A stretch of DNA of 64,000 nt from Apophysomyces variabilis (taxonomy: Eukaryota; Mucoromycota; Mucoromycetes; Mucorales; Mucoraceae), in the NCBI GenBank assembly GCA_002749535.1, contig MZZL01000391.1, positions 77,061 through 141,060 of the forward strand, given 5' to 3'. The notes beneath the pieces were generated by a model that made no database searches, was not told the DNA's origin, and saw only the letters and a program-made list of their open reading frames with translations. Shown here piece after piece: positions 2,595-63,925 of this stretch. Position 1 is the stretch's first letter, and each line of letters begins with the position of its first letter. A program made the position numbers and the translations under genes.

Positions 2595-5500
2595 ATGTTC
2601 TTCAAAGGTTCGCATGCTAAGGAAGACTGCTTCATGTGGAAATCAATGCTGAAGGAGGCAGCAGCCAAGAGCAACAAACCCCACAACAACAGACAAAAGG
2701 GGCACAAGGAGCCAAACCTCTGCCGCTACTGTAAAAAGGTGGAATACACCAAAGGGCACACATGTCCAGAATATTGGAACAGCAAAAAAGTGGTGGCAAA
2801 CCGCTCCATAAAGGTTATGGATCTAGAAGATCCAGACAACCTATTGCCAATCAACATAGAGAAATTGGATCTCCAACAACAAGGTATTCACCTTACAAAT
2901 TCCATTAACAAAACCACTGACTCAATTTACATACCAATTCTTATACAGAATAAACGACAGTGGGGCCTCATTGATACAGGGGCAAATGGATCTTTTATGA
3001 ACCTGGGATTAGCACAGGAATTACATTTGTTAGTCAACACAAATAAAAAATATAATATTCAACTGGCATCCACAGATAGTACCATAAATAGTTTTGGCAC
3101 TGTTGAAGCAGAATTGTCATACAAGGGTAAACACCTAAAACATACCTTCATTGTTATGAATCTATCACTGGGTACACAAATCAGCATCGGTTTGGATCTT
3201 ATGCCCAAGTTAAGATTAGGCATCACAGGTATTGCAGCTTCATGGGATGACCAAATGGAGAAAAATTCCAAAGACAATATCATAAATGATATTCCTAAGC
3301 CCAACGACTCACCTGCAGGCACAACAGCAGAAAGACATATATTCTTTCAAGCAATTCAGCCTTCATTGCATACTAATGCAAACATACCTAGTTCATCGTT
3401 TTGCACGATACCCGAGTCAATTATACACTTAGACACACCAGAAGGCCTAACATCATACCGAAGACAATATGATCTGCCAATGGTGTATGAATCCAAAGTA
3501 CAAGAAGCCGTGGACACTTGGTTAAAAGAGGGAACAATTGAAAGGGCACCAGTTGACACAGCCTGGAATAGTCCCTTAACCTTGGCACCAAAGAAAGATG
3601 CATCCGGTAACTACACCGATCATTGTCCTTGCTTGGATCCATGACATATCAACAAACTCATCAAAGTGGATCGTTACCCACTGCCTCTTATTGGAGACAT
3701 ATTTTACAAGCTCGGAGGTTCTACTGTGTTCACTACATTAGACCTTAAAACTGCTTTTCATCGTTTCCAAATCTATGAGCCAGACCGTCCTAAAACAGCG
3801 TTCACTTTCAAAGGCACGCAATATATGTTTAAAGGTTGTCCGTTTGGTCTCAAGCCGATATCATCCAAGTTTCAACGCGTCATGGATATCCTTTTCTGTG
3901 ATACTCCGTTCGTTACGACGTTTGTGGATGATATTATCATACACTCTGAAAATATGGAAAAACGCACAGTGCATATCAAAACTGTTATCGATAAACTTAC
4001 TGCCGTCAACTTGATCCTCAATCCCAAAAAATGCCACTTTGCACAAAAGTCAGTTTATTTATTGGGTTTCTGCATGTCAGGAAAAGGCATAACGCTGGAC
4101 CCACGCAAAGTGAGTAACATACAAGAGTGGCCACTTCCTTGCACAGGAAAAGACGTACAACGTTTTCTTGGCGTCATCAACTACTTCCGGGAACACATCC
4201 CTAATGCTTCCATGCTCACAGCTCCATTGGATCGGTTATGCAATGCAGACAATCTGAAAGACCTTTGGACAGAAGAGCACACGACCACTTTCCAAAGCCT
4301 AAAGCAAATTTTGCTGATGCTACCTATCCTGTGCTACCCAAACTTAAAATACCCGTTCAGTGTTGCAACAGACATCTCTAACACAGGCATTGAGGCAGTT
4401 CTCTACCAAACAATTAATGGAAAAACATGCCATATTGCTTTCATGGCACGTGCTTTAACAACAAGCGAACGTAATTACTCCACTACCAAACGAGAACTAC
4501 TTGCTATTATTTATGCGCTCAACAAATTCCACAAATATCTATGGGGAAACAAATTCACCCTCCTGACTGACCACAAGGCACTAACGTATCTTCATACGCA
4601 AAAGAAGCCTAACGCCATGATGATTAACTGGCTTGATACGCTTCTGCAATACGACTTCGATGTTGAACACCTCCCAGGTTTACGAAACATCTTACCTGAT
4701 CAACTTTCACGCCTTTTCCCCCCGGCAAAAATGCTGGAAGGGGGTACTGCTCCCGCAATAAGTCAGGATAATAAGGAAAAGCTTCTTAATAGGGCAGCTT
4801 CCATGAATAATGACGATAAATTAATTCCACCAGAAAAGGAACGCCCAGAGCTTTTACACAACGCGTATATATTTGGACATTTTGGCGCTGACGCCATGGT
4901 CAATGCACTTCATAACGAAGGGTTACACTGGCCGAACATACACAAAGAAGCTGTAGAAACAGTAAGAAAGTGTGCAGAGTGCCAAAAGCACAATATCATA
5001 AAAAGAGGTTATCATCCTCTGCGTCCTATACATGCATACTTGCCTTGTAATCATTGGGCAATAGATCTGGCCAGTCCTTTCACTACCTCTCACACAGGTA
5101 ACAATTATTTGTTGATTATGATCGACATTTGCACTCATTTCTGTGTTCTCCATGCAATACCTGACAAATCTCAAAACACAGTAGTAAACGCTGTAATTCA
5201 TGTCTTCTGTGATTTCGGATTTCCTCGATATCTACAATCTGACAATGGAAAAGAGTTCATCAATTCACTCATTAAATTACTAGCACAATCATCAGGTTTT
5301 GATCATCGATTGGTCACACCTTATCATCCAAGAGCCAACGGCGTAGCAGAATGCTGGGTTTCTACCTCAACAAACGCACTCAGAAAATGCATCAAAGGGG
5401 CAACCTGAGATTGGGACCTCTATGTACCAAGTGTACAACTAGCATTAAATGCAAAAGTCACAAAGTGGACAGGATTATCACCTTACAGTCTTATGTTTGC

Positions 5501-55066: not shown

Positions 55067-55068
55067 TA

Positions 55069-56054
55069 CAGTCATTTCAGAAAGTAAAGTCGCTGATTTT
55101 GAGTTCAATGTCGTGCAAAAAAATTGTGCGTTCGATAATGATGTCGATTGATCCAAAAATAAAGTCCTGCTCAGGTGTCACGAACTTCGTTTTATTTTTA
55201 ATTGTCGCTTAGTAATTATCCAATAAAATTCTTGGCATTAAATTATTATAAAAAAGGGGTTACGATTTTCTGTGTCCATTTTGCTCTCTTCTTTCTATTT
55301 ACAATTTATTTTACAGATATTGAAGTTGAGTATGCAATTTCTTTTATGAAGATGGACAAGGGCATGTTGTTGATGAACATGGCGTTGAGCCGATGGATCT
55401 TGTTGTTGATGAGGAGTTGTATGCTATTGACACAATAAGTTCCCGTACTCAATTCTTAATGAATAAACCTCCAGAAAGGCCATCTAATCCCGTTATACTT
55501 CCAGTTGCGGATGAAATAAACTATCATATTGATATGGAGTTATGCAATAAGCGACGCTATACGGTTTACTCTGATGAAGACAAAACTAGATTTTTTCATT
55601 TATTTTTCAGCAAATGCTTGAATGCTTCTGCTGCTGCGAGACAATTGGGCATTCATATCCGGGCAGCGCAGAGATGGGTTAAACGTTATTACGAAGACCC
55701 TGAAAGCATTTTCGAAAAAAAGAAAAAATCAGGGCGACGTCGTATTCTTGGGAATGAGCATAAGCAATTTCTTTTAAATTACATTGATGAGAATCCTTCT
55801 GCCGTTGTCAATGAAGTGGTGGAAAGTTTGAAACAAAACTATGAGGATCTCAACGTTTCTCGTAGTACTGTTTATAATTTCATGACAACTCAGTGTAATC
55901 TGTCTATTAAGCAAGCACAGTTTCATCCTGTGGAAAGAAACAGTGAGGAAAAGATTCAGCAAAGATACGACTGGGTTCAAAAGTGGCAGCAAACTGACCT
56001 GGATTTCACAACAAATTGCGTCTTTCTTGATGAATCGGCCTTTCACATTAATTT
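55069..56054 (+). repeat. Left arm, inverted repeat with 59873-60858
   Basis: 986 bp, the same length as the visible right arm; the coded peptides of the two copies are identical over the compared part. It contains the terminal sequence, leader and the first 220 codons of the transposase. Confidence 0.93.
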
Positions 56055-56613
56055 GAAACGGGGTATGGCTTGGTCAAAGAAAGGCACTCCTGCAGTAGTT
56101 ACAGTGCCAATGACGAAAGCAAAAGCAACTTCTATTTTAGGTGCAATTTCTGCCACAGGTTTAATTAATGTTAGTTTGCGAGTTCCGAAGCGTATCAAGA
56201 AGAGAAAGCTCGGGTGTGAGACTGATGGTTATAGCATAGGAACAGTGACAGGCCATTACTTGAGCTTTTTAAAAGCTACTCTTGATGAAATGGACAAGTA
56301 TCCAGAAATGAAGGGACATTATCTTGTCATGGATAATGCTCCTATCCATAGCTCAACTGACATAGGAAAGTATATTCACTCTCGAGGATATCGATATGCA
56401 TATCTTCCTCCATATTCCCCTGAACTGAATCCAATTGAGCAGTTTTGGTCAGTCGTCAAAAGTAAAGTTAAACGAAACAAGTTTTTGGAAAAAGAATCGC
56501 TCATGACTAGGATCAGTGAGGCGTGTGATAGCTTACATTTTAGTGATTTCAAAGGCTTTGTTTCTCATTCTGCTAATTGCTTTGATAAGTGCCTTAACAA
56601 AGAAAGCTTATAA
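55393..56613 (+). CDS. Tc1/mariner-superfamily transposase (DDE, left copy, intact)
   Basis: 406 codons without interruption, opening MDLVVDEELYAIDTI. The N-terminal half has helix-turn-helix DNA-binding segments (NASAAARQLGIHIRAAQRW, GRRRILGNEHKQFLLNYI, LNVSRSTVYNFM). The C-terminal half has the DDE triad in IS630/Tc1 context: first Asp in CVFLDESAFHIN, second in YLVMDNAPIHSS, and Glu in YLPPYSPELNPIEQFW. Tc1/mariner transposases cut out the element and reinsert it at TA. The start at 55393 is the first ATG of the frame; TGA codons lie just upstream. A twin copy on the other strand begins at 60534. Everything seen is compatible with an active enzyme. Confidence 0.93.
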   Translation: MDLVVDEELYAIDTISSRTQFLMNKPPERPSNPVILPVADEINYHIDMELCNKRRYTVYSDEDKTRFFHLFFSKCLNASAAARQLGIHIRAAQRWVKRYYEDPESIFEKKKKSGRRRILGNEHKQFLLNYIDENPSAVVNEVVESLKQNYEDLNVSRSTVYNFMTTQCNLSIKQAQFHPVERNSEEKIQQRYDWVQKWQQTDLDFTTNCVFLDESAFHINLKRGMAWSKKGTPAVVTVPMTKAKATSILGAISATGLINVSLRVPKRIKKRKLGCETDGYSIGTVTGHYLSFLKATLDEMDKYPEMKGHYLVMDNAPIHSSTDIGKYIHSRGYRYAYLPPYSPELNPIEQFWSVVKSKVKRNKFLEKESLMTRISEACDSLHFSDFKGFVSHSANCFDKCLNKESL

Positions 56614-56648
56614 AAGCGGGTAACAGCAATCTGTAAGCCAATAGAAAA

Positions 56649-57278
56649 CATGAGCAAAAAAACATGAGCAAAAAAACATGAGCAAAAAAACATGAGCAAA
56701 AAAACATGAGCAAAAAAACATGAGCAAAAAAACATGAGCAAAAAAACATGAGCAAAAAAACATGAGCAAAAAAACATGAGCAAAAAAACATGAGCAAAAA
56801 AACATGAGCAAAAAAACATGAGCAAAAAAACATGAGCAAAAAAACATGAGCAAAAAAACATGAGCAAAAAAACATGAGCAAAAAAACATGAGCAAAAAAA
56901 CATGAGCAAAAAAACATGAGCAAAAAAACATGAGCAAAAAAACATGAGCAAAAAAACATGAGCAAAAAAACATGAGCAAAAAAACATGAGCAAAAAAACA
57001 TGAGCAAAAAAACATGAGCAAAAAAACATGAGCAAAAAAACATGAGCAAAAAAACATGAGCAAAAAAACATGAGCAAAAAAACATGAGCAAAAAAACATG
57101 AGCAAAAAAACATGAGCAAAAAAACATGAGCAAAAAAACATGAGCAAAAAAACATGAGCAAAAAAACATGAGCAAAAAAACATGAGCAAAAAAACATGAG
57201 CAAAAAAACATGAGCAAAAAAACATGAGCAAAAAAACATGAGCAAAAAAACATGAGCAAAAAAACATGAGCAAAAAAA
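56649..57278 (+). repeat. 14-bp tandem array, 45 units
   Basis: The unit CATGAGCAAAAAAA repeats 45 times in 630 bp with no variant that I can see. It starts 36 bp after the transposase stop codon. A related single unit in opposite orientation (TTTTTTTTGCTCAT) lies at about 57309-57324, inside the cargo leader. Perfect homogeneity points to recent amplification or active turnover. Confidence 0.97.
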
Positions 57279-57345
57279 CAAGTCACTCTCATTTTAATTC
57301 GTTGCCATGTTTTTTTTGCTCATATTTTTTTTTGGAGGCCCAAAC

Positions 57346-58788
57346 ATGGCTGAATTGTCTCATTTGTGCAATAACAAAGGCACCATCGTTTTGTTAAAAA
57401 AGCTATGCCCGGATTGTGAGGAACCATTCAGCCGATTCCAAGATATGAAAAGGCACATATTCATTAAACACGACAAGGATCTCACATCACGTTCGAAGAA
57501 AGACCATGGCAAATCAACAGACGGAATTCCAGTGCATGTCTACAACACAAGCAACGTGAAGAAATACACTCAAAAAGGCACAAGAATCATGATTAAATTC
57601 GCCTGCCCAGGCTGTCGCGACATATTTAACACTGTTTCAGAACTCGCGCATCACGTCGACAATAACCATGTAAAAAGAGCGCCATCACTTGAAAACCTAT
57701 CTCCTGAAGACAAACGATGGGTCCTGGATGGTCACGATATTTCAAGCCAATTTCAAGAATATCGCCGATCTTGTATTACTGCGTCGCGTTCAGCTGAATT
57801 TGCCGTCGAGAGTCATTTCAACGAGCTTTTGGCTATGTCTGGTATCCTTGTCTTGCAGCGACGGGGCAATTATGAAGATTTGCCAACCGACATTTTTCCA
57901 CCCTCCTTATTAAAAACAGCGCGCACTGAAATACTGGCCAAGTACAAGCGCAACACATTCCAACCGCACGTCAGATCAGCAGTTCAATCGATTATTCAGC
58001 AGTTTGTGGATGAAAACATCACGGAAACACGAGCCAAAATCGAGCTTCTCTCACTTTGCAAGCCAGTTGTTACTCCCTCGCAACAAAATTCCATTGAACC
58101 AACGGAGTATGAATGTGCAGTTATCATGGCAATAGTGGCCTTACTCTCGTATCTATACGACTGTGACATGAAGCCACTCTCTGAAGCACATCTGACTTCC
58201 AGCTACGTCCATCCATTTATGCATGGCCTTTTGTCCGCAAAGAAGCCCTCAAAAGTTGCGCATTGTTCGAACATAGTCCCAGAAGAGTTTGACGATGCTG
58301 TCGATCGACCAGACTATAAAATTGACGTGTATGCATCTTCTGGATACCGGTTCTCGTACACCAACGCCTATGGAGAGGTCAAAAAGAGCAGCAATGTTTC
58401 AGTCACACTGCTTGCCAAAGATTTTTATCGGTTGTGCATCTTTAGCAAAGAAGCAATTGATCTGTACAATTTGAGAAACGTCCTGTCCTTCCAAGTTACA
58501 GCCAACTCAGTCACGTTTTTTACGATGCAATTGGAATCTCCATTCTTATACGTTGTCACAGAATTGGTTCGGTTGCGCATTCCAACAAAGAAATCTGATC
58601 TCCTGGATTTAATGGGACATGTGGACAACTTGCTTTTTGTTGCGTCATTGTACCGAGACCATTGCGTGGTTAGCGAAAATGATCTGACGCCTTGGCGCTG
58701 TGATACACTGTCGAACGCGTATTTAGACGTGATCAAAAACAAATTAGCACCAAGGAAACGAACCTGTAACTTGACTCTTGACTCTTGA
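57346..58788 (+). CDS. Zinc-finger cargo protein of the composite element, function unknown
   Basis: An intact single-exon gene. The frame is open from ATG 57307 (493 codons), but the first 13 residues (MFFLLIFFFGG) come from a repeat unit, so the natural start is more likely ATG 57346 (MAELSHLCNNKG, 480 codons). Two C2H2 fingers are near the N-terminus: CPDCEEPFSRFQDMKRHIF-IKH, and CPGCRDIFNTVSELAHHVDNNH. Then comes a helical region (SFAVESHFNE-like RSAEFAVESHFNELL, ECAVIMAIVALLSYLYD, HPFMHGLLSAKKPSKVAHC) and a mixed C-terminal domain (RPDYKIDVYASSGYRFSYT, LTPWRCDTLSNAYLD). The fingers suggest DNA or RNA binding. I recognise no enzymatic motif. It could be a host-derived passenger or an element-encoded accessory factor acting on the repeat arrays. 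Confidence 0.85.
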   Translation: MAELSHLCNNKGTIVLLKKLCPDCEEPFSRFQDMKRHIFIKHDKDLTSRSKKDHGKSTDGIPVHVYNTSNVKKYTQKGTRIMIKFACPGCRDIFNTVSELAHHVDNNHVKRAPSLENLSPEDKRWVLDGHDISSQFQEYRRSCITASRSAEFAVESHFNELLAMSGILVLQRRGNYEDLPTDIFPPSLLKTARTEILAKYKRNTFQPHVRSAVQSIIQQFVDENITETRAKIELLSLCKPVVTPSQQNSIEPTEYECAVIMAIVALLSYLYDCDMKPLSEAHLTSSYVHPFMHGLLSAKKPSKVAHCSNIVPEEFDDAVDRPDYKIDVYASSGYRFSYTNAYGEVKKSSNVSVTLLAKDFYRLCIFSKEAIDLYNLRNVLSFQVTANSVTFFTMQLESPFLYVVTELVRLRIPTKKSDLLDLMGHVDNLLFVASLYRDHCVVSENDLTPWRCDTLSNAYLDVIKNKLAPRKRTCNLTLDS

Positions 58789-58992
58789 ATGTGGCCGTAT
58801 ACCCACCCAATCAATCTTTTTTATTTTCCCTATTCCCACCAGTGATTTTCCTTCGTTATCGTGTGTGTTTTTACTTGCTCGCTCTTTGTTGGATTTGCCC
58901 ATCCTTCCTATTTCCCTTTCTACTATTTCCTTTATACAGCATTTGTTTGCTATTGATATGAATACACAACAGTCTCATAAAAAATCGGTTTG

Positions 58993-59158
58993 GTCATGTT
59001 TTTTTTGCTCATGTTTTTTTGCTCATGTTTTTTTTTGCTCATGTTTTTTTTTGCTCATGTTTTTTTTTGCTCATGTTTTTTTGCTCATGTTTTTTTTTGC
59101 TCATGTTTTTTTGCTCATGTTTTTTTTTGCTCATGTTTTTTTTTGCTCATGTTTTTTT
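58993..59158 (-). repeat. Right tandem array (inverted, partly in gap)
   Basis: Ten GCTCATG words separated by T-runs of 7-9, which is the left array in reverse complement but with variable A/T-run length (units of 14-16 bp). It runs into the N gap at 59159, so its full extent is unknown. Confidence 0.93.
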
Positions 59159-59872
59159 NNNNNNNNNNNNNNNNNNNNNNNNNNNNNNNNNNNNNNNNNN
59201 NNNNNNNNNNNNNNNNNNNNNNNNNNNNNNNNNNNNNNNNNNNNNNNNNNNNNNNNNNNNNNNNNNNNNNNNNNNNNNNNNNNNNNNNNNNNNNNNNNNN
59301 NNNNNNNNNNNNNNNNNNNNNNNNNNNNNNNNNNNNNNNNNNNNNNNNNNNNNNNNNNNNNNNNNNNNNNNNNNNNNNNNNNNNNNNNNNNNNNNNNNNN
59401 NNNNNNNNNNNNNNNNNNNNNNNNNNNNNNNNNNNNNNNNNNNNNNNNNNNNNNNNNNNNNNNNNNNNNNNNNNNNNNNNNNNNNNNNNNNNNNNNNNNN
59501 NNNNNNNNNNNNNNNNNNNNNNNNNNNNNNNNNNNNNNNNNNNNNNNNNNNNNNNNNNNNNNNNNNNNNNNNNNNNNNNNNNNNNNNNNNNNNNNNNNNN
59601 NNNNNNNNNNNNNNNNNNNNNNNNNNNNNNNNNNNNNNNNNNNNNNNNNNNNNNNNNNNNNNNNNNNNNNNNNNNNNNNNNNNNNNNNNNNNNNNNNNNN
59701 NNNNNNNNNNNNNNNNNNNNNNNNNNNNNNNNNNNNNNNNNNNNNNNNNNNNNNNNNNNNNNNNNNNNNNNNNNNNNNNNNNNNNNNNNNNNNNNNNNNN
59801 NNNNNNNNNNNNNNNNNNNNNNNNNNNNNNNNNNNNNNNNNNNNNNNNNNNNNNNNNNNNNNNNNNNNNNNN
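59159..59872. other. Assembly gap (N)
   Basis: 714 N inside the composite element. The left side is the inverted array, the right side is transposase sequence at the position matching 56054. The gap must contain the 3' part of the right transposase (about 560 bp) and the rest of the array; the true length is unknown. Confidence 1.
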
Positions 59873-60534
59873 AAATTAATGTGAAAGGCCGATTCATCAA
59901 GAAAGACGCAATTTGTTGTGAAATCCAGGTCAGTTTGCTGCCACTTTTGAACCCAGTCGTATCTTTGCTGAATCTTTTCCTCACTGTTTCTTTCCACAGG
60001 ATGAAACTGTGCTTGCTTAATAGACAGATTACACTGAGTTGTCATGAAATTATAAACAGTACTACGAGAAACGTTGAGATCCTCATAGTTTTGTTTCAAA
60101 CTTTCCACCACTTCATTGACAACGGCAGAAGGATTCTCATCAATGTAATTTAAAAGAAATTGCTTATGCTCATTCCCAAGAATACGACGTCGCCCTGATT
60201 TTTTCTTTTTTTCGAAAATGCTTTCAGGGTCTTCGTAATAACGTTTAACCCATCTCTGCGCTGCCCGGATATGAATGCCCAATTGTCTCGCAGCAGCAGA
60301 AGCATTCAAGCATTTGCTGAAAAATAAATGAAAAAATCTAGTTTTGTCTTCATCAGAGTAAACCGTATAGCGTCGCTTATTGCATAACTCCATATCAATA
60401 TGATAGTTTATTTCATCCGCAACTGGAAGTATAACGGGATTAGATGGCCTTTCTGGAGGTTTATTCATTAAGAATTGAGTACGGGAACTTATTGTGTCAA
60501 TAGCATACAACTCCTCATCAACAACAAGATCCAT
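59873..60534 (-). CDS. Tc1/mariner-type transposase, right copy (partial, runs into gap)
   Basis: Reads on the minus strand from ATG 60534. The first 220 residues are identical to the left copy (MDLVVDEELYAIDTI to CVFLDESAFHIN), including the helix-turn-helix region and the first catalytic Asp. The second Asp and the Glu lie in the gap, so integrity cannot be judged. Identity to the left arm suggests either very recent formation or gene conversion between the arms. Confidence 0.9.
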
Positions 60535-60858
60535 CGGCTCAACGCCATGTTCATCAACAACATGCCCTTGTCCATCTTCATAAAAGAAATTGCATACTCA
60601 ACTTCAATATCTGTAAAATAAATTGTAAATAGAAAGAAGAGAGCAAAATGGACACAGAAAATCGTAACCCCTTTTTTATAATAATTTAATGCCAAGAATT
60701 TTATTGGATAATTACTAAGCGACAATTAAAAATAAAACGAAGTTCGTGACACCTGAGCAGGACTTTATTTTTGGATCAATCGACATCATTATCGAACGCA
60801 CAATTTTTTTGCACGACATTGAACTCAAAATCAGCGACTTTACTTTCTGAAATGACTG
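59873..60858 (-). repeat. Right arm, inverted repeat with 55069-56054
   Basis: Same length (986 bp) and sequence as the left arm in reverse orientation, ending CTGAAATGACTG followed by the target TA at 60859-60860. Confidence 0.93.
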
Positions 60859-60860
60859 TA

Positions 60861-62160
60861 TAATCCATGGTTTCACTGCGCACGGACAACCGTGATTGGT
60901 GATCAGCAAGCAGCGGCGACGAGTAAATTACTTTCTTTTTATGTGTAGAATGAAGTTTATTATGTGCCACTGAGAGCGGGCACAAATTAATGGTGAGCTA
61001 CTTTAACGTACACATTTGTCGACGACGACGAATAATCACTTTTTTTTTGTGAAAACATTTGCACTGCTCGAAACATTTCTCTGCGCCAACTAATATCCGT
61101 ATTTGCGACGGCGATGTTTGATTGTAAACGCAATAACTATGTTGATCGACGTTGGCCTCTTTTCCATTTCCTCCGTTGTGCTTGCTTGCTGGGGTCCATT
61201 CCGTTTTCTTTCTCTTTTGTCGTTTGTCCAAGATCATTCAACTGGAACCCAACAATCTTCCTACTTAGGCCTATTAATTACGTTGCGTGAACAAATGTTT
61301 AAAAACAATAGCCCTCAGCATATCATGATCTCAATCGCTTTTAGGGATCGGCATGAACGAATACGAATACACGAATATTTTGCCGACCCCTAATCGTAAT
61401 CAATTCTTACTTTGAAATAAACACCCGGCAAGAGTCTCGAAGTATTTTATACGCGTCTCTCTTACTAATTCTTCAGTTACAGCACTCTTCGATGATGTGT
61501 ATTTGGAAGAATCATCACATCTTTTGCAAATGTACCACCTCCTTCAACATAAACATAAGGCTTGATCAAATGCAGATCTTGCTCATTTTCTGATACACTT
61601 CATTTCTCTCCTTCTGTACGATTGTGGTACGATGGAAAGTTCTGGTATTATGGACCCTTACCTGTTTTATATTCATTGAACAAATATGGCTGGTATAATA
61701 ACGCTATGACAGCCTCAGGGCAAGTCTTTCTAATGTCGTACCGTAGCATTTGGCTATTATTCCCTTTTGGATACCAGGGATGTTTTTTGATGTAATACCA
61801 AGTTGTTTCGACGACTCTATCGATGGTTGTTATAGTCCGTCTTTCTTCCGTAGAATATGTTAGTTATATAATCCTCAGACCACTGTATCCGTTGCTATTC
61901 TTTCGCTTCTTTGCTTGAACAGCTGATCATGTCTCAATAAGATGAACTATCAATTGAAGGAGTGTTCGTAAACGAATCGATATCCATTACCATTTTTCGT
62001 ATGTGAAATTGATTAGAAGGTTAATTAGTGTGTACGTTCTCTGAATATTTTGGCAAATGTACGGATCAAAGATGAACTCTCGTAGACAGAGGAGGATCAG
62101 CTCCCGTCATGTCACGGGAAGACAAGGAACGCAGAATTTCAATCGGTGCAAGCTTCTTTG
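60861..62160. other. Intergenic between composite element and LINE
   Basis: No supported gene. It contains a short hairpin element at 61342-61392 (listed separately). Frames such as 61103-61393 (+) have no recognisable domain. Confidence 0.4.
61342..61392. repeat. 51-bp hairpin with hAT-like ends
   Basis: TAGGGATCGGCA at 61342-61353 pairs with TGCCGACCCCTA at 61381-61392 (11 of 12 bases), around a 27-bp loop containing CGAATA three times. The end sequence resembles terminal repeats of hAT transposons, so this may be a minimal non-autonomous relic. No clear 8-bp target duplication. Confidence 0.45.
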
Positions 62161-62164
62161 CAAA

Positions 62165-63925
62165 ATAGTGTAATGCACGCCGGGCTCTTTCCGCTATTCC
62201 GCACTGTTATATAGCGTTTGAAAAAGTCGCGATTTCCACCAACCCAAAACAAACTATCACCCTTACAGAGCTACAGACCGCACAGCAGCTCAACATCGAT
62301 GGCCCACGCCTGCAATAAACACGATGCTGCCCAACGACAAAAATGGGTCAACCCCACTTCTGACCTCCGCAGAACTTGAAGCTCTCAACACACTTTTCGA
62401 TCAAAAGAAAAAGGACTTCTCCTGTAACAACGGACAATGCTCTAAGTTTGCAATTCGACGACATGATACTACGAAAAACACTTCGCCTCCCCAGACCTTC
62501 TTTCGATACCACACCTGTACTAAATTATACAGCGTTTACGAGATCAACAATCTTACAGTCACACAAATTACTACAGGTACAATTACTAACATACCACAGG
62601 CTATAGAGGAGATGGAGTTCGACTCCCTCTTCTCTCAAAACCCCAAGACTTTATCACTCAAGTTATGAATGAACTACAAACACAGAGAGAACGCCTCAAC
62701 CGACATGATACCATGTATGCCGGGATCCGAAGACTCCAAAAGAGCTTGACACCGCCAAATCTCAGATCGCGGAACTTGAAGCCAACCGCTGGCTCTGACA
62801 ACAGCTCGCACAGCCCCAGCAAACTAAAACACTGGAAGAGGATAGCTTCCCACCCCTATCAACACATACTCAGCAGGTTCCAACCACCAACACTACTGCT
62901 AGTCCCCGGTCGCAACCACTGCCCCAACGAATTCGCCAGGCTCCAATCTCTCCAGTGACCCAACAACGCCACCTTGACGCTGCTGCCCGCGCTTTCCAAC
63001 GACCGTCCGAAACACATGGCTTTCAGTATATATACTTCCCCTCCCGTGCTCGCAAGCCAATTGGACAAATGCGAACCTGCCTTCGCCGCCTCGGGATAGA
63101 CAACAGCCGAGTCCTAGATATCCAATATGGAACTCGTCAAACAATTGTTATACTACACTCCCCTCTAAAATTCTGTGTAACTGAAGAACATACGCATTCT
63201 TCTTTTGTATGTTTCTCATTTTTTGTCTTATTCAATCTTCCTCCATGCCACTGAACTGCGTCACTAACTCTAAACCCAATCTTGTGGTTGCCCATGACGA
63301 GACGAGACCGCAGCAGGTGCATCCGCTGGTGACTAGCATGGCTTGCCGGTGGCAAGAAAGAGGACTGCATTACCTGTGGCTGTGTGAACCTCACCAAGAA
63401 ACATGCCATGGACTGTCTCCGTATGCATGACCGCCTAGGCATTACCCTCCAGCAGACTGACGCTCCAATGTCCTTCTGCCTCAACCTCCTCCCGCATTCG
63501 ATCCCCAGATCCACCCGCCGTCGCCAACAGATCCGCATAATATGGCCTGTTGTGTGCACAATTCTTGCCGAACTCGATGCTCACCAGCATCCAGGATCAG
63601 ATCTACGACAATACCATGACCCAGATCCGGGAAAGGCCCTACTGGAATGGCTCGATGCTCTCCCTCCTGAACCAGGTTAGGCATATCAAAGCTGACTCCC
63701 TCTTCTTCCCTCTTTTTCCTTTTTCATTTCCTTTCTATTTCACTACATGTTTTTCTTTATTCCTTTATATTCCTTTTGCCTCACTCTTTCGACCTTTTCC
63801 TTGCCTCATCCGCAGGGTTTTTATTCCACTTTTTCTTTTTTGAGCGGTCTCGAGCAAATATGTCTGTCACAGAGGCTGTGCTCAAGTTAGAGACGTTAAA
63901 TAAAACCAACAAATTTTTAAACGTA
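62165..63925 (+). pseudogene. LINE copy, internally deleted (ORF1 joined to 3' end)
   Basis: The 5' part codes an ORF1-like nucleic-acid-binding protein in broken frames: LLTSAELEALNTLFDQ (62.35 kb), a coiled stretch MNELQTQRERLNRHDTM (62.67 kb) and AARAFQRPSETHGFQYIYF with TCLRRLGIDNSRVLDIQY (62.98-63.13 kb). At about 63.2-63.3 kb it passes directly to the ORF2 C-terminal end (CVNLTKKHAMDCLRMHDRLG, FCLNLLPHSIPRS, RQQIRIIWPVVCTILAELDA, PPEPG) seen also at 41.8-42.14 kb. Endonuclease and reverse transcriptase are missing. The 3' tail GAGACGTTAAATAAAACCAAC matches the other copy. It cannot move itself. Confidence 0.8.

Follow-up and report, generated by a model that had tools for sequence, protein, structure and literature searches.

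Transposons of the Tc1/mariner group (IS630-Tc1-mariner) usually carry a single transposase gene between short terminal repeats, and the terminal repeats of such transposons normally serve as the recognition sites. In bacterial composite transposons such as Tn5 and Tn10, a transposase gene lies near each end, the cargo is exchangeable and the outer ends define the unit, each arm being a complete insertion sequence. The element described here was read in a 64,000-nucleotide (nt) stretch of contig MZZL01000391.1 of Apophysomyces variabilis (the window; locus C76 in this genome of 38.7 Mb and 126 contigs), where it spans the interval from the TA at position 55067 to the TA at position 60860. Judged by its transposase type and its ends, it is a Tc1/mariner element, sharing with this group a DDE_3 transposase with a DD34E triad, TA at both ends, CAGT/CACT terminal ends and spaced subterminal repeats. 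It departs from the usual single-transposase, short-repeat plan in that the transposase gene lies inside both of its terminal repeats, these forming kilobase arms, and in that a second gene occupies the middle. End-placed transposases, exchangeable cargo and unit-defining outer ends are common to elements of the C76 type and to Tn5 or Tn10, whereas C76-type arms do not have two ends each.

Some mariners carry an additional nuclease gene (Bao and Jurka 2013, PMC3627910). In the available excerpts of that report they resemble the C76 type in combining a mariner transposase with differing endonuclease genes, related transposase halves being joined to unrelated other halves, but their transposase lies in the 5' part and none is described in both repeats; the accompanying proteins are of the GIY-YIG, EcoRII-like and Fanzor types, and the elements are mostly virus-borne. 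Foldback elements, as excerpted in a second account (PMC4079207), are marked by very long terminal inverted repeats and frequently by tandem arrays, and C76 has both of these features. It shares with the foldback elements Galileo and Tetris very long inverted repeats, internal tandem arrays and a suspected homogenisation of the repeats, whereas Tetris is devoid of transposase and placed with Mutator, Galileo is of the P type, and the excerpted text describes no transposase inside both repeats. Mariners constitute 3.62% of the Rhizopus oryzae assembly, in an account whose excerpts do not mention their anatomy (PMC2699053). Among the open-licence texts and excerpts that we searched, none was found to describe an exchangeable centre between terminal repeats that both contain a transposase gene, which does not prove that no such description exists.

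We consider it probable that C76 represents a Tc1/mariner group with the transposase inside its terminal repeats, whose arms are kept alike by recombination or recopying and which mobilises whatever lies between them. The anatomy recurs in the genome, the two arms of each element are nearly identical, and middle genes of the same families are found repeatedly. From the TA and the end sequences, we infer that the full unit can be excised or inserted. Repeats that carry a gene in two like copies while the centre changes would in principle buffer the element against loss of the transposase and allow it to take other DNA between its arms.

Anatomy of the window element

The two arms, at 55067-56054 (plus strand) and 59873-60860 (minus strand), are inverted relative to one another and 100% complementary, with 0 mismatches over the 988 nt that are visible, a likeness far above chance. 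By direct reading, the outer ends carry TA (55067-55068 and 60859-60860), a putative target-site duplication outside which the left and right sequences differ. Inward of the TA, sequence reading and an end-sequence scan place CAGTCATTTCAGAAAGTAAAGTCGC at 55069-55093 (plus strand) and again at 60834-60858 (minus strand), and on the left it is followed by spaced RTGTCG/AAGTCG-like repeats up to about position 55207. The left transposase frame (55393-56613, plus strand) encodes a protein of 406 amino acids (aa) of the IS630/Tc1 type, with a DDE_3 match in Pfam (2.6e-26), an IS630 family match (6e-45) and a catalytic triad, D213, D314 and E349, in which 34 residues separate the last two. The same frame points inward from the right end, where its first ~220 codons (59873-60534, minus strand) are visible and, by frame and sequence comparison, 100% identical to the left copy. 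Between the two transposase genes the repeat scan revealed a left array of 45.4 copies of a 14-bp unit (56645-57280, plus strand) and an inverted right array (58989-59158, minus strand) made of the same unit with longer T runs; the middle gene (57346-58788, plus strand, 480 aa) lies between the arrays. The assembly gap (59159-59872) counts 714 N, a size that fits a mirror-image right arm since completing the transposase and the spacer takes 590 bp, leaving about 124 bp for the remainder of the array.

A preliminary description of this stretch, made from its sequence, had proposed a Tc1/mariner-type element with inverted arms, TA at both outer ends, an inward-pointing transposase in each arm and a gene between, all of which is borne out by the transposase type, the TA and the arm comparison. 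It had also reported no internal terminal sequence, and the 27-nt outer-end sequence was indeed found within the element at the two outer ends only, even when 8 mismatches were allowed. The likeness to a composite transposon drawn in that description stands in so far as there is a transposase at each end and the outer ends would be able to carry the centre; it fails in that the arms are not complete elements, each having an outer and no inner end. The further proposal that two complete mariner copies, inverted relative to each other, inserted on either side of a host gene and now travel together draws on the presence of a transposase in both arms with a gene between, and on the variety of centres in related loci, including frames resembling a long interspersed nuclear element (LINE) in C80 and a Mutator-like element (MULE) in C95:1.79M, both labelled by eye. 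We regard it as very unlikely. In addition to C76, no inner end was found in C91 or C95:1.79M at up to 7 mismatches, nor in the scanned parts of C22 and C80, which cover less than their whole centres; the sole neighbouring pair with inner ends, C93, consists of two conventional copies; no inverted 3' repeat was seen in the 1.5 kb beside seven single loci of the same clade (one then running into N, one lying near a contig end); and the middle-gene families recur beside such transposases.

Long-armed relatives in the genome

A transposase search of the genome, in which 102 of 719 candidates were scored, gave 108 matches that merged to at least 96 loci, the list of loci being incomplete. Sixteen neighbouring pairs lay 20 kb or less apart; 11 of these point inward, compared with the 25% expected (P 0.0003), 4 point in the same direction and 1 outward. 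Ten of the inward pairs are long-arm elements (C76, C22, C80:513k, C92:283k, C87:1.17M, C75, C91, C95:1.13M, C87:489k and C95:1.79M). The eleventh, C93:16.8-31.9k, was rejected as a two-armed element, each of its copies having its own 143/166-bp repeats as two conventional elements do. Reading around single matches added C92:446k, C118 and C109, for a total of 13 long-arm loci including C76, with transposase homology in both arms in 12 of them; the remaining loci of the 96 were viewed as the match itself or with 1.5-kb flanks. Other copies in the genome, which the preliminary description had looked to, are therefore at hand, and three of them (C75, C87:1.17M and C92:446k) have a centre of the same family as C76. 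The nine best assembled members have terminal inverted repeats of 1.5-2.8 kb, transposase included. In C118 the inner arm gives way to N, in which the right transposase is lost from view, and in C109 the right arm is cut short. TA is found on both sides in three of the five elements with both outer ends readable (C76, C22 and C95:1.79M).

Six conventional mariners of the same genome (L022, L023, L025, L024, L026 and L045) have one transposase and short repeats of 37, 144, 139, 143, 166 and 95 bp, respectively. The relatives that bear a name, both for the middle gene and among the best 120 of 433 for the C76 transposase, belong to what we take to be Mucorales fungi; no relatives were found in the viral contigs searched. 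A distant mariner family has several open copies of near-equal score (C86:104702, C89:640115, C95:376190, C94:1888208 and C43:134604), which may have been active recently; the copy checked, C86, is conventional.

The longest match between the two arms, with the number of differences in brackets, measures 988 bp (0) in C76, 1438 bp (2) plus 620 bp (0) in C22, 1876 bp (1) in C80:513k, 2789 bp (2) in C92:283k, 2155 bp (0) in C87:1.17M, 2058 bp (26) in C75, 1542 bp (3) in C91, 1563 bp (9) in C95:1.13M, 1585 bp (4) in C87:489k, 2658 bp (6) in C95:1.79M, 467 bp (6) in C92:446k, 369 bp (2) in C118 and 357 bp (0) in C109, the last with a further 178 bp at 96%. The longest arm matches of the 13 loci are thus 98.7-100% identical (0-1.3% difference) within elements, whereas DNA identity between elements, compared in all 15 pairings of six of them, is 63-84% (16-37% difference), excepting a 47-bp piece at 85%. 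Because the arms of different elements are far less alike, the likeness inside an element appears to be renewed or recent, and gene conversion or repair copying one arm onto the other would be its natural causes. Two readings of C71 and C80 were given up: the differences between them are not all transitions, both kinds occurring, and the opposite placement of their shared segment need not reflect an arm-mediated inversion, since an element that is symmetric may insert in either direction.

Could the arms have been created by the assembly, through collapsed or mis-scaffolded repeats? For C76 taken alone, with a gap inside its right arm, scaffolding could yield identical arms, and gaps are also present in C92, C75, C118 and C109. 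Six elements, however, are assembled from arm to arm without N (C80:513k, C91, C95:1.13M and C95:1.79M) or with a single N (C22 and C87:1.17M), their outer flanks differing, and an artefact is scarcely credible since five of the six show 1-9 differences between their arms (C87:1.17M shows none).

Middle genes and tandem arrays

The centre looks like a slot, occupied by LINE- or MULE-like genes or by a member of one of several protein families. Family 1, the window type, is found in C76, C75, C87:1.17M, C92:446k and C80:27k, and family 2 (DILY...VEIQ) in C87:489k, C118, C71 and C80:160k; families 3 (C22 and C28) and 4 (GR..D....ELS..E.K; C91 and C109) were grouped by eye. Other centres contain LINE-like frames (C80:513k), MULE-like and other frames (C95:1.79M) or zinc-finger-like and other frames (C95:1.13M), have a Helitron-like helicase alongside (C95:200k), fall in an N gap (C92:283k) or show nothing recognised (C70), the LINE-, MULE- and Helitron-like labels being given by eye. 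Tandem arrays flank the centre on both sides in 8 of the 17 loci scanned (C76, C80:513k, C92:283k, C75, C87:489k, C118, C71 and C80:160k), with units that vary by element (9, 13, 14, 21 and 45 bp) and left and right copy numbers that are unequal in several.

Proximity of middle genes to transposases was counted on the incomplete list of loci, whose 5-kb surroundings take up about 2.5% of the genome. Family 1 comprises 12 merged loci; besides C76, 4 of the 11 others lie at 5 kb or less from a listed transposase (P 0.0001), so that cargo and transposase do occur together elsewhere, and three of these four lie between arms. The other seven lie away from listed transposases, although one of them, C83, adjoins a transposase fragment. 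In family 2, 4 of the 27 loci other than the query locus are near a listed transposase (P 0.004). Two tandem family 2 copies lie away from listed transposases at C95:3645-3649k, and at C80:162-165k (L013 and L048) the middle gene is doubled in a 3.1-kb palindrome (97.6%), inverted around a short unpaired centre.

A motif, RPDYKxDxY...YGE(V/I)K, is among the best conserved parts of family 1: R321, P322 and D323 are invariant in 20 aligned rows and E344 and K346 present in at least 90% of them, and all five are invariant in 10 further, more diverse rows. To us the motif reads like a PD-(D/E)XK active site, and together with its conservation it makes the family 1 protein a possible PD-(D/E)XK nuclease. 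Similar-looking motifs were seen by eye in families 2 and 4, while family 3 is without the lysine. The best family matches of the C76 middle gene are to C2H2 zinc fingers (Pfam, 7.5e-6, just below the cut-off; CTCF in PDB, 4e-4), those to a HipA domain (NCBIfam, 0.0019, below the cut-off) and to a PHROG endonuclease (0.35) being too weak to count. No Fanzor/TnpB-type Pfam match was found in it or, as far as the 25 of 47 families shown go, in 20 aligned relatives. Comparison of the family 1 and 3 profiles gave an E value of 0.009 with a probability of 4.5%; comparisons 1-2, 1-4, 2-3 and 2-4, and two against the transposase, gave nothing usable.

Family 1 proteins, 39-93% identical and several of them matching part of the query, were read from the listed matches in 14 named genera (Rhizopus, Dichotomocladium, Phycomyces, Radiomyces, Absidia, Zychaea, Mucor, Spinellus, Benjaminiella, Mycotypha, Circinella, Parasitella, Gilbertella and Hesseltinella). 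Identities of 83-93% to several genera, taken without a housekeeping-gene baseline, are a hint of horizontal spread and a lead only. In the protein lists, the longest contig given for middle gene P0001 and for transposase P0078 has the same length, 8883 bases, and that for P0146 and P0094 is 2824 bases in both cases, a hint that such genes are linked in the relatives too. A bolder proposal, which we find doubtful as a whole, is that these elements form a distinct eukaryotic class of self-homogenising palindromic mariners, composite-like and cargo-swapping, with the transposase doubled in the terminal repeats and a central slot for unrelated nuclease families whose cuts would make repair recopy the element and convert its arms, and that they spread horizontally through Mucorales.

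Transposase phylogeny and formation of the arms

In a midpoint-rooted transposase tree all 11 inward pairs are sisters, including C93, which was left out of the two-armed count. Several observations weigh against the reading that we prefer, of a Tc1/mariner group carrying its transposase in its terminal repeats and mobilising the centre. The sister group of the main two-armed clade consists of the conventional L022, L023, L025 and C93, and the two-armed C87:489k falls outside both, a position implying that two-armed elements had at least two origins, that the conventional clade lost the design or that this design was transferred between elements; the tree is thus at odds with a single unbroken lineage, and favours recurrent formation over a single old one. 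Over the 8-12 kb retrieved, six main-clade loci (C71, C70, C28, C95:200k, C80:160k and C80:27k) show a single transposase without a second arm, C28 being cut by a contig end. One TA is missing in two of the five readable elements (C92, with TG, and C95:1.13M, with TT), perhaps through decay. An empty site, which the preliminary description had suggested looking for, did not emerge from three joined-flank searches (C76, C95:1.79M and C22): none gave a match across the junction, those for C95:1.79M and C22 returned their own flanks only, and in that for C76 the right flank also matched dispersed repeats. As to the centre, no homology is detectable between families 1, 2 and 4, and 23 of the 28 family 2 loci have no listed transposase nearby. 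The nuclease assignment is a matter of motifs, of which the ExK half is absent from the C92:446k copy; profile searches of the middle gene gave zinc fingers or sub-threshold matches only, and two AlphaFold models of it are of low confidence (mean predicted local distance difference test, pLDDT, 49.6 and 41.3).

Recurrent formation would be taken furthest by repeated independent inverted duplication, in which a one-transposase mariner with an accessory gene had one end recently copied onto the other by aberrant repair, leaving no lasting two-armed lineage. Suggestive of such events are the differing depths at which the arms end (some 1.5-2.8 kb), the branching of C87:489k outside the clade in which conventional copies and the remaining two-armed elements are united, the palindromic doubling of the C80:160k middle gene and the existence of one-armed relatives. 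Yet the duplication would have to have happened again and again, in roughly a dozen elements with arms that, where compared, diverge by 16-37%, none of the six conventional copies examined shows the like, and one-armed C71 and C80:160k have inverted arrays on both sides of the centre, as remnants of two-armed elements would. On balance we consider this account unlikely.

In the reading that we prefer, transposase from either arm would act on the outer ends and move the whole unit at TA sites, while recombination or gene conversion inside the element would keep the arms alike. Alternatively, interrupted gap repair could copy one arm to the other side, which would also explain arms ending at different depths. 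The space between would be an exchangeable slot, often with an accessory gene, possibly a nuclease, and we may guess that this gene triggers breaks in the DNA whose repair copies the element or its arms; a role of this kind has been suggested for further nucleases carried by transposons, TnpB among them. Movement of the unit would make it a small cargo-carrying transposon of these fungi, in which arm homogenisation is directly testable by sequencing, and would raise the question of what brings protein families with nuclease-like motifs into one and the same slot.

Elsewhere in the window, short stretches of the right flank of the element (60927-61160), mostly about 90-120 bp long, have matches at some 20 further genomic sites. 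By eye, two long frames at 2595-5408 resemble a Ty3/gypsy-type retroelement polyprotein, and frames at 62324-63254 are like the first frame of the LINE-like stretch within the C80 element.

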